From Ligilactobacillus agilis DSM 20509 (GTDB taxonomy: Bacteria > Bacillota > Bacilli > Lactobacillales > Lactobacillaceae): a stretch of 64,000 nucleotides of DNA. The notes beneath the pieces were generated by a model. The model did no database searches. It saw only the letters and a program-made list of their open reading frames with translations, and was not told where the DNA came from. The translations under genes and the position numbers were made by a program. Of the stretch, positions 33,762 through 39,622 are shown one piece after another. Each line of letters opens with the position of its first letter. The first letter of the stretch is position 1. The stretch is from the NCBI RefSeq assembly GCF_001436215.1, contig NZ_AYYP01000061.1, positions 1 to 64,000 on the forward strand. The letters are read 5' to 3'.

Positions 33762-37221
<3,460 letters not shown>

Positions 37222-37282
37222 AATAGCAACCTCCAATAAAAAATTTTGAGTAATAAGTGCAGTAAAGAGTTTTTTGCAAAAG

Positions 37283-37381
37283 AAAAACCCAGAAACTCAT
37301 TTAGAGTACAGCTACCCCTAAGGGTAAAAGCAATCTAATTAAGTTTCTGGGTTGATGCCTAGTCGAACTAGTAACACACCT
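37283..37381 (-). promoter_or_regulatory. RAT antiterminator element and leader terminator of the beta-glucoside operon
   Basis: On the minus strand the leader has a ribonucleic-antiterminator-like element (37381-37350, containing GTGTTACT and AGGCATCAACC) that overlaps the 5' arm of a terminator. The terminator stem is AACCCAGAAACT with AGTTTCTGGGTT, ending in TTTTTC (37352-37283). A BglG/LicT-type protein, active when the sugar is present, would bind the RAT and block the terminator. No such gene lies in the window. Confidence 0.8.
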
Positions 37382-37394
37382 CTTTACGGCTATT

Positions 37395-37425
37395 ATAATA
37401 CCGATTACAGAAAGCGTTGTCAATG
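37395..37425 (-). promoter_or_regulatory. promoter with overlapping cre site for the beta-glucoside operon
   Basis: The minus-strand promoter is TTGACA (37423-37418), a 17-bp spacer and TATTAT (37400-37395). A catabolite-responsive element, AGAAAGCGTTGTCA on the plus strand (37409-37422), matches the CcpA consensus at all but the first position. It overlaps the -35 box, so CcpA with P-Ser-HPr should repress. Confidence 0.8.
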
Positions 37426-37443: not shown

Positions 37444-37473
37444 GGAATAAATTTAAAAAAGCATAGTGGCTTG
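37444..37473. repeat. left copy of a 30-bp perfect direct repeat
   Basis: The repeat runs from GGAATAAATTT to AGTGGCTTG and is identical to 38639-38668. This copy lies upstream of the lipoprotein gene and corresponds to the last codons and stop of the choloylglycine-hydrolase family gene, but without the rest of that gene. Confidence 0.93.
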
Positions 37474-37635
37474 TCCAAAAGTACTGAACTCTTCTAACCT
37501 AGTGAAAATTGAAAATAATAAAGTATCTAAGATGATTATAAACTTTTTTTAAGCAATTAATAACTTGCAAATATATATATATATAATGTTAAGAGAAGTT
37601 TAAGATTATATAAAGTTAATTTAAAGGAGATTTTT

Positions 37636-38556
37636 ATGAAAAAGTATATTTTATTAGGTTTTAGTTTGTTAATAGTACTTTTTTCATTGACAGCTTGTAA
37701 AGATAAAGGTACTAAAATAAATGGTCATACTGTTTATAAAACAGAAATTACATCAATTAAAACTGATAGTGATCAAGACTGGAAAATAACTGGAACTACA
37801 GACGCTCCAGACGGGACAAAAATTTTAGCTTTTAGTAATGATAAAAGCGATTACTATAACTGGACACTTAGCTATACAGATTCTGATTGGGTTAAAGTAA
37901 AAGACGGTAAATTTAAGCTAGCAGTAGATCCTACTGAGGTTACAAATGATGATGCTTGGGATGAAGCAAATAAAGATATTAAGGTAACTATAGTAGCTGT
38001 ATCAGAATATGATAAGGATGCTGATGACGAAGCACCTAAAGCTTTAGTAAAAGGTATTAGAAAGAATTTCACACCAGAGAAGTTAACTACTACAAAGAAG
38101 CAGGTTAAGTATAAAGAAAAACTTGAAGAAGAAGACAGTGATGAAGAAGATAGTGACTCTGATAGTTCTTCATCAGAAAGCAGAGATAATGAAGACGAAG
38201 ATACAGATTCAGAAGATACAGATTCATCAGTAAATACTTCGGATAAGTCGCAATACCAAAGTGTTACGTATGATCAGTTAGCTAGGACACCTGACGATTT
38301 TAAGAAAAAGCTAATTACTATTTCAGGTACAGTTTTGCAATCAATTGTTGGTGAAGATGGGACAACTGAATTAATAGTTGACACGACTGGAAATGGTGAT
38401 GTTATTGAGGTTTTAGAAATGAATAAAAGTTCAGTTCGTCATTTAGAGGGTGACAGTGTTACAATTTATGGTGTTTCTGGAGGCTTGACGTCTTATGAAT
38501 CGTCTGGTAGCGGTACAGTAACCGCGCCTTTGATAGGAGCTTATATTATTGAATAA
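37636..38556 (+). CDS. AT-rich lipoprotein with acidic linker and OB-fold-like C-terminal domain
   Basis: A 306-residue lipoprotein of unknown function. The signal peptide is residues 1-20, with lipobox LTAC and lipidated Cys21. A first domain of beta character spans about 30-145. An Asp/Glu/Ser-rich linker lies at about 162-205 (LEEEDSDEEDSDSD). A C-terminal domain at about 207-306 begins YQSVTYDQLARTPDD and resembles small OB-fold (tRNA_anti-like) domains in other Firmicute lipoproteins. Codon use is unlike the neighbours, rich in AT with many ATA and AGA codons. The gene lies alone inside a 1.2-kb segment bounded by 30-bp direct repeats, which points to acquisition from elsewhere. AAAGGAG precedes the ATG. 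It faces the cell exterior; the binding partner is unknown. Confidence 0.8.
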   Translation: MKKYILLGFSLLIVLFSLTACKDKGTKINGHTVYKTEITSIKTDSDQDWKITGTTDAPDGTKILAFSNDKSDYYNWTLSYTDSDWVKVKDGKFKLAVDPTEVTNDDAWDEANKDIKVTIVAVSEYDKDADDEAPKALVKGIRKNFTPEKLTTTKKQVKYKEKLEEEDSDEEDSDSDSSSSESRDNEDEDTDSEDTDSSVNTSDKSQYQSVTYDQLARTPDDFKKKLITISGTVLQSIVGEDGTTELIVDTTGNGDVIEVLEMNKSSVRHLEGDSVTIYGVSGGLTSYESSGSGTVTAPLIGAYIIE

Positions 38557-38579
38557 CGCTAGATAAATACTTTAATTTA

Positions 38580-38625
38580 AAAAGAAAACTATTCTTCGTA
38601 TTTTTAGAAGAGTAGTTTTCTTTTT
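38580..38625 (+). terminator. intrinsic terminator of the lipoprotein gene
   Basis: AAAGAAAACTA and TCTTC pair with GAAGA and TAGTTTTCTTT, followed by T residues. It lies 24 bp after the stop, inside the repeat-bounded segment. Confidence 0.85.
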
Positions 38626-38638
38626 ATACACTGATAAC

Positions 38639-38668
38639 GGAATAAATTTAAAAAAGCATAGTGGCTTG
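38639..38668. repeat. right copy of the 30-bp direct repeat
   Basis: Identical to 37444-37473. Bases 38648-38668 are the last codons and stop of the minus-strand hydrolase gene. The copies start 1195 bp apart. Confidence 0.93.
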
Positions 38669-39622
38669 CCAGGTAGATGGGAGCTGGAAAACCTTGACTG
38701 TTGGGCGGTTGAGTAAGTCTGAATTTAAACTCACCCCGAAAATTTGTGCTTGACCAACTGGCTTAAAGTAGTAGCTTAAACTTTGAGCTGAGGTAACAGT
38801 TTGATAAACCGTATAAGTAGGACGGTGGGCCTTACTTTTAGGCACGGAAACAGCGTCTAGTAGTTTAAAGGCGAGGTCCGCTGCCTCTAGCTCATTTGCT
38901 GGAACGTCAACCATTTCCTTGAGCCAAGCCGCCTTGACAAAGCGCTGGCTGGGAGTATAACCACCGCTAGGTTGCTTTTTACCGGCTTGTTTACCAGTCG
39001 TAACGTGAAAGGCACCTAAGGGACTGTTTCCAGCTAAAAATTCAGGCGTGAAGTCAAGGTAGCTGTCCATCTTAGCTAGTTGCTTTTCAAAACTAGGCAT
39101 ATTAGTTACGACTCCTAAAGGATTTTCAATTACCTTTAAAGGAGAGTGCGAAGGTTCAATTACAATGCTACGTCCGCTGGCGTCGCTGACAGCAAAGTGG
39201 AGTTCATCACCGCCGTGTTTTAATTGGCTTTTAAGGGCCATGAGTTGAATCGTTGGTAGTTGTTTTTCTAAATCGGCAATGGATTTAAAGTTACCAAGGG
39301 TATAAAGGACAAACTCAAAGGCGGCCAACTGGATGTTAGCATCGTTTTTTTCAGTGGTTAGGCTGGTGCCGTTAGCGAAGGTTAGTTTTTGAACGCTTAG
39401 GCCCCACTCATTGATGCCATCGCTTAAGTCGATTAGGTTTTGGTCCTGGAAACCAGTTCCTACCACGGCGTACTTGTTTTGGTAAGGACGGTGGTTATAA
39501 ATAGACTGCCACTGATAGTTGCGGGGCACAAAGATGGGACTAACATAAAGGTCGTACCAATCCATGGTTCGACCTAATAGATAACTTTTGTCGGTAGCGC
39601 TTACGAAAATGCTGGTGCACAT
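38648..39622 (-). CDS. choloylglycine hydrolase family protein (linear amide C-N hydrolase)
   Basis: A 324-residue N-terminal nucleophile hydrolase. Removal of Met exposes the catalytic Cys2 (MCTSIF). Other family residues are Arg18 and Asp21 (GRTMDWYD), an Asn in VVTNMPSFE and an Arg in PSQRFV. The family includes bile salt hydrolases and penicillin V acylases. The loop that helps tell these apart (GLSVQKLTFANG) matches neither pattern, so the substrate stays open. The start ATG 39622 follows GTGAGG, and TTTACA-17 bp-CATACT upstream is a possible promoter. The 3' end coincides with the right copy of the direct repeat, so this gene was the likely insertion or recombination target. Confidence 0.85.
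   Translation of the reverse strand: MCTSIFVSATDKSYLLGRTMDWYDLYVSPIFVPRNYQWQSIYNHRPYQNKYAVVGTGFQDQNLIDLSDGINEWGLSVQKLTFANGTSLTTEKNDANIQLAAFEFVLYTLGNFKSIADLEKQLPTIQLMALKSQLKHGGDELHFAVSDASGRSIVIEPSHSPLKVIENPLGVVTNMPSFEKQLAKMDSYLDFTPEFLAGNSPLGAFHVTTGKQAGKKQPSGGYTPSQRFVKAAWLKEMVDVPANELEAADLAFKLLDAVSVPKSKAHRPTYTVYQTVTSAQSLSYYFKPVGQAQIFGVSLNSDLLNRPTVKVFQLPSTWQATMLF

Follow-up and report, generated by a model that had tools for sequence, protein, structure and literature searches.

Organisation of the locus

The window analysed here comprises bases 1-64000 of a 97-kb contig from a draft genome of 2.06 Mb in 72 contigs. Within it, a single lipoprotein gene occupies an AT-rich segment between a bile-salt-hydrolase-like gene of the choloylglycine-hydrolase family and a PTS gene (35248-37236), and a 30-bp direct repeat bounds the segment on both sides. 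The features of the locus, by window position, are:

37395-37423, minus strand: promoter-like sequence (TTGACA-17-TATTAT) preceding the PTS gene, 20 bp outside the left repeat
37444-37473, no strand assigned: left copy of the 30-bp direct repeat, duplicating the hydrolase 3′ end away from the gene; putative att site on the chromosome/PTS side
37474-38638, no strand assigned: the segment enclosed by the two copies, foreign in composition (G+C about 0.31)
37636-38556, plus strand: lipoprotein gene, 306 aa, with a lipobox (LTAC, by eye), an N-terminal part, an acidic Ser/Asp/Glu linker and a C-terminal part
38578-38626, no strand assigned: terminator-like hairpin between the lipoprotein stop codon and the right repeat, folding on both strands
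38639-38668, no strand assigned: right copy of the 30-bp repeat, made up of the hydrolase gene's last 6 codons, its stop and 9 trailing bases; putative att site on the gene side
38648-39622, minus strand: choloylglycine-hydrolase family gene (CBAH; Pfam CBAH, E 1.8e-57), intact, the putative target gene

The two repeat copies are identical at 30 of 30 bases and spaced 1195 bp apart, which is the length of one unit, and the sequence outside both copies diverges immediately on either side. The right copy begins with nine trailing bases (38639-38647), continues through the stop codon (38648-38650) and ends with 18 coding bases, the six codons for Q-A-T-M-L-F. When one repeat unit was removed in a script, the hydrolase frame stayed intact and ended in WQATMLF-stop. 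The initial annotation had described an identical pair at these positions, a right copy formed by the last codons, stop and nine trailing bases of the hydrolase gene, and a gene that would survive collapse of the repeats, all of which was borne out. A direct-repeat search of the 64-kb window (length at least 24 bp, seed 16) reported the 30-bp pair as its sole family, and the longest exact repeat in each of 30 order-2 simulated windows (30/30) measured only 15–18 bp, so the pair is not a product of chance. No third copy with up to three mismatches was found in the 2.06 Mb of the genome, and the earlier caution that the repeat might be a common dispersed sequence thus falls away. An assembly artefact, conceivable in a draft of 72 contigs, is highly improbable: the repeat lies well inside the 97-kb contig, the genome is 99.99% complete with 0.25% contamination, and a 30-bp repeat is shorter than the usual read length.

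The composition of the segment sets it apart from its surroundings, with a G+C content of 0.31 against 0.42 for the window and a third-position G+C of 0.20 in the lipoprotein gene against 0.33-0.45 in three genes nearby. The plus strand carries one long ORF (37636-38556), overlapped on the other strand by an ORF of 66 aa. AT-rich sequence and a ribosome-binding site (by eye) precede the lipoprotein gene, and the hairpin that follows it has a 20-bp stem and a loop of 9. Its folding energy is -23.7 kcal/mol on the plus strand and -18.9 kcal/mol on the other (z -6.1 and -4.1), and on neither strand did any of 200 shuffles fold as well; the hairpin may act as a terminator on either strand. A simple terminator scan, whose loops span 3-8, did not list the hairpin at 38578-38626, whose loop exceeds the upper limit of 8. 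The earlier picture of an AT-rich segment holding a single lipoprotein gene with its own terminator agrees with these results.

No inverted repeat starts at the segment ends, where 15 of 50 positions agree, in line with the absence of terminal inverted repeats stated at the outset. One imperfect subterminal inverted pair (37477-37497 and 38604-38624, 76% over 21) was listed; its right arm is part of the hairpin, and several chance-like pairs of similar quality appeared in the same listing. A transposing element of unknown type that duplicates 30 bp of its target would account for the flanking direct repeats, and the imperfect subterminal pair likewise counts in its favour. We regard this origin as very improbable, given that no inverted repeat starts at the ends and the lipoprotein gene is the sole long plus-strand ORF; moreover, it is integrases that typically use a target placed exactly over a stop codon.

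The promoter-like site of the PTS gene lies only 20 bp from the left copy, and host sequence therefore resumes directly outside it. The leader of the PTS gene contains an imperfect 32-bp inverted repeat (37286-37353), which we take to be possibly an antiterminator hairpin; this region had no Rfam match at E up to 0.5. An ortholog of the hydrolase is present in L. salivarius DSM 20555 (NZ_AYYT01000003.1, 55%). In the seven ortholog loci examined (43-56% identity) neither nusG nor the PTS gene adjoins the hydrolase gene, and an empty site consequently cannot be read there.

The lipoprotein family and its genomic contexts

The N-terminus of the window protein is hydrophobic and carries LTAC, as read from the translation. 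The protein had no match in Pfam, NCBIfam or PADLOC, and an AlphaFold model built without an alignment was too poor for use (mean pLDDT 42.7). Its C-terminal half matches phrog_5319 (E 2.3e-15), which includes ORF22 of phage A2, and its N-terminal part is common to lipoproteins of prophage lysogeny modules. Among 14 family members, a single one matched an OB-fold, and only weakly (E 0.0081).

Relatives were found by tblastn (E 1e-5 or better) in 19 of 50,697 phage records, corresponding to 12 phages since 14 of the 19 are GenBank/RefSeq pairs of seven phages, and in 2 of 72,556 plasmid records. Each phage match covers less than half of the window protein, either one half or the other, at below 60% identity throughout, and none covers 80%. 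In phages Sha1 and A2 the relative gene sits between cI and int, while in the Oenococcus phage phi9805 its end is separated from the annotated attR by 871 bp that contain two small ORFs. Among bacteria, matches occurred in 4 of 26 genomes of the genus, the source genome included, and in 58 of 397 genomes of the family Lactobacillaceae, sampled at one genome per species. Single-protein scans of genome contigs and viral contigs returned nothing; a search with the family alignment found seven IMG/VR viral loci, in five of which an integrase follows the gene. The other two end at a contig edge, and L130 repeats L116, one of the bacterial loci described below, over the last 1.9 kb. The viral locus L131 has the same reading-frame starts as L118, and is not an exact copy of it.

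We inspected the contexts (12-17 kb per locus) of 16 of the 29 non-window bacterial loci, namely the 11 best-scoring and five that match the N-terminal half or most of the protein; most of the other 13 match the C-terminal half only. A tyrosine integrase match was present in 7 of the 16 and a resolvase instead in one. The remaining eight, where the search covered tyrosine integrases over 15-16 kb, had no such match, and no exact flanking repeat longer than 12 bp in a scan of ±1.5 kb. As judged from these neighbourhoods, the lipoprotein is a frequent, though not exclusive, prophage lysogeny gene, and the eight contexts without a tyrosine integrase match indicate that it can also spread or persist by other routes.

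These eight contexts bear on an origin by illegitimate or homology-assisted import, in which a fragment carrying the lipoprotein gene was joined at the hydrolase end and the 30 bp were duplicated by repair or template switching, or were left over from a tandem duplication after deletion. Relatives lacking a tyrosine integrase match are common (8/16, in a search for tyrosine integrases alone), and the gene evidently also occurs in chromosomes without att-like repeats. Even so, the duplicate at the window locus is compact, perfect over 30 bp and sharp-ended, and runs across the stop and last codons as att cores do, whereas the usual products of illegitimate and repair events are short microhomologies or long duplications. 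We consider import unlikely.

Exact flanking repeats of at least 20 bp were present at 3 of 33 lipoprotein loci, the window's included, against 1 of 28 hydrolase control loci. Two of these loci, L055 and L051, adjoin an integrase gene (L051 by eye) and were considered as att parallels, but the repeated sequence there is a spacer adjoining other genes within one module, and the att reading thus gains no support from them. The lysogeny modules L055/L124 and L051 contain several lipoprotein or membrane-protein genes in a row, separated by repeated spacers (42 and 21 bp, exact) that could permit gene exchange by recombination.

A hint of function comes from two relatives (L119:6766-7716 and L120:7232-8182, from two genomes of one genus), in which Ltp repeats (PF07553, E about 1e-38) come after the same N-terminal domain as in the window lipoprotein. 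The Ltp of phage TP-J34 scored E 7.8e-34 for PF07553 in the same scan. The arrangement looks as if one anchor domain pairs with different exclusion heads, and by family resemblance the window lipoprotein is probably anchored outside the cell membrane, where it would block DNA entry of related phages (superinfection exclusion). This role is argued from the family, since the Ltp repeats occur in two relatives, while the Pfam scan detected no PF07553 repeats in the window protein and direct comparison with Ltp gave no meaningful alignment. Like the window gene's relatives, the Ltp of Streptococcus phage TP-J34 is presented in PMC3952083 as the product of a lysogeny-module lipoprotein gene, and the discussion of that paper raises ltp as one of the ‘morons’; the window gene differs in having no other gene with it between its repeats. 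Lactobacillus phage A2 ORF22 (phrog_5319) and its relatives share the C-terminal part of the window protein, at 45% over about 90 residues, and in A2 the gene adjoins xis and int. The N-terminal part of the window protein, in contrast, was left unmatched by tblastn in ORF22.

Search for an integrase, attP and further copies

The segment contains no integrase, repressor or other phage gene, its sole long plus-strand ORF being without a Pfam match. The genome has five tyrosine-recombinase (PF00589) matches, all on other contigs: two resemble Xer in size, one has a tRNA-Ser gene next to it, one is near a dipeptidase-like gene (by eye) and one is short. Three resolvase-family (PF00239) matches fall on two other contigs, which agrees with the initial annotation that the segment holds no recombinase. 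Two adjacent large serine-recombinase open frames of 529 and 527 aa were noted in this genome (G000:C39:45515-47968).

At the phage-type integrases, the best likeness to the 30-bp core was 18/30 on contig C42 and 17/30 on contig C30, values reached by 1098 and 1927 of 2000 shuffles, respectively. The short recombinase on contig C43 gave 20/30, which 58 of 2000 shuffles reached; as an att site this match is weak among the 17 regions tested, and for that reason it was not counted. The top core match in each of 14 further regions of phages or prophages stayed within the control maximum. The viral contigs contained neither exact 23- and 19-base patterns of the repeat nor a 20-base pattern spanning the repeat into the hydrolase gene. 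A 25-base version of the repeat was found in 2 of the 397 family genomes, the source genome and G109; the latter match has three mismatches with no other likeness seen and is attributed to chance.

The 30-bp repeat matched 153 phage records at E up to 10. Among the best 20 of these 153, the top match (21 bp, E 0.01) falls in two unannotated 3-kb Listeria contigs and is explained as AT-rich chance similarity; the same 21 bp also occur within a phosphatase coding region of a Listeria record. The matching plasmid records, 75 with an E limit of 10 and 2 with a limit of 0.3, were likewise discarded as AT-rich chance. With the whole segment as query, no match was found in the phage records, a 45-bp Cetobacterium match (E 0.002) in the plasmid records was set aside, and a wider plasmid search yielded only a match to a glucosidase gene. 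Thus no credible attP or other element carrying the core was found in the source genome, the 397 family genomes, the viral contigs or the phage and plasmid matches inspected. The proposal that the same repeat might be joined to an integrase or phage elsewhere accordingly met with no convincing match in any of these collections.

An integrase downstream of a hydrolase paralog in Ligilactobacillus genome G003 was rejected as a parallel: the surroundings are a type I restriction locus (by eye), and no repeat of at least 18 bp lies around it. This locus (L128:7992-18170) comprises several specificity-subunit genes and a tyrosine recombinase, by eye, and looks like a shuffling specificity locus.

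Weissella cibaria NH9449 has a 1526-bp circular record (L032; NZ_CP061508.1, 1-1526) whose sole long ORF is a relative of the lipoprotein, with 33% identity over 270 residues. Bases 1163-1316 of this record (154 bp), which include a palindrome with a perfect 13-bp stem, recur in the co-resident plasmid pNH9449-4 and in other, larger plasmids, mostly from Weissella but also from Leuconostoc. A second shared stretch of 44-47 bp occurs in two further plasmids, with no rep gene tied to it. We rejected the record as an excised circle, the palindrome region being common to plasmids that include pNH9449-4, which has an annotated replication initiation gene; the record looks like a rep-less satellite plasmid with a possible exclusion gene.

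These searches weigh on the idea of a small non-autonomous element, in which a single-att circle of about 1.2 kb would have been integrated, and would still be excisable, through an integrase acting in trans. The cargo gene is self-contained, with AT-rich upstream sequence, a ribosome-binding site (by eye) and the hairpin, and the Weissella record places a member of the family on minimal DNA. Nevertheless, that circle resembles a rep-less plasmid satellite rather than an excised cassette, the core matches at C42 and C30 are no better than shuffles and that at C43 is weak after 17 regions, and no other copy of the repeat was found. Such an element is, in our judgement, decidedly unlikely. A narrower form, in which a 1.2-kb single-gene phage-exclusion cassette was moved at the gene 3′ end by an integrase of the resident prophages in trans, appears slightly less probable still; were it true, immunity genes would move between sites as minimal cargo.

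Origin of the segment and comparison with known systems

Site-specific integration leaves a characteristic footprint, foreign DNA flanked by a duplicated gene 3′ end. Taken together, the duplicated 3′ end, the intact gene, the foreign composition and the prophage-type cargo make integrase-mediated insertion the best explanation of the locus. The integration reading of the initial annotation is supported by the footprint and the cargo family. Its suggestion of a small cargo element moved in trans has no direct support: the searches described above turned up neither a further repeat copy nor an attP, and none of the integrases examined has a similar site next to it. The missing element genes make a deletion remnant likelier than an active element, and a trimmed remnant of a larger element needs fewer assumptions than a small trans-moved one. 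We therefore favour, as the probable origin, an integrative element at the hydrolase 3′ end, in all likelihood a prophage, that was deleted except for a remnant bounded by attL and attR.

We infer the following course of events, in which the repeats are taken as att sites, a larger element as deleted and exclusion as the function of the cargo. An integrative element, most likely a prophage, would have inserted site-specifically into the 3′ end of the hydrolase gene, and the two 30-bp copies would represent the attL and attR cores. The gene-side copy would supply the last codons of the hydrolase, so that the gene would never have been broken. An internal deletion would then have removed the integrase, repressor and other element genes, leaving the lipoprotein gene and its hairpin between the att sites, and exclusion of related phages would be a reason for keeping the gene after loss of the phage. 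For an ancestor with the gene near attR, the arrangement of phi9805, one deletion would be enough, whereas a gene between repressor and integrase would call for two. Where the loci examined have an integrase, it usually separates the gene from the expected att, and an origin from such a lysogeny module would therefore require two deletions.

Through this clean footprint a stand-alone lipoprotein gene is tied to an integration event, which hints at a way for exclusion genes of prophages to remain in bacterial chromosomes after the phage is lost. Since the repeats are perfect, the integration was perhaps recent. The hydrolase 3′ end is a possible attachment site in the genus; literature titles and abstracts, which are weak evidence of absence, contained no report of it in this role.

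Among known systems, pdif modules combine small cargo and short sites with a recombinase, XerCD, that acts in trans. The 30-bp repeat differs from these sites in having no XerC/XerD-like inverted arms (at best 5 of 9 positions paired, a value that 1586 of 2000 shuffles equal).

Att-bounded leftovers of this kind are already known, and by analogy the closest described kind is the streptococcal CIME (cis-mobilizable element). CIMEs are characterised, in the parts of PMC7563491 and PMC5704250 that deal with them, as att-bounded cargo at gene 3′ ends without recombination or transfer genes, the ‘classical’ ones measuring 1.2-13 kb. The segment likewise has two direct repeats (30/30), the 3′ end of an intact target gene within the repeat, and no integrase, relaxase or conjugation gene, its one long plus-strand ORF having no Pfam match. 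CIMEs derive, according to the same descriptions, from ICEs or IMEs, whereas the cargo of the segment points instead to a phage ancestor.
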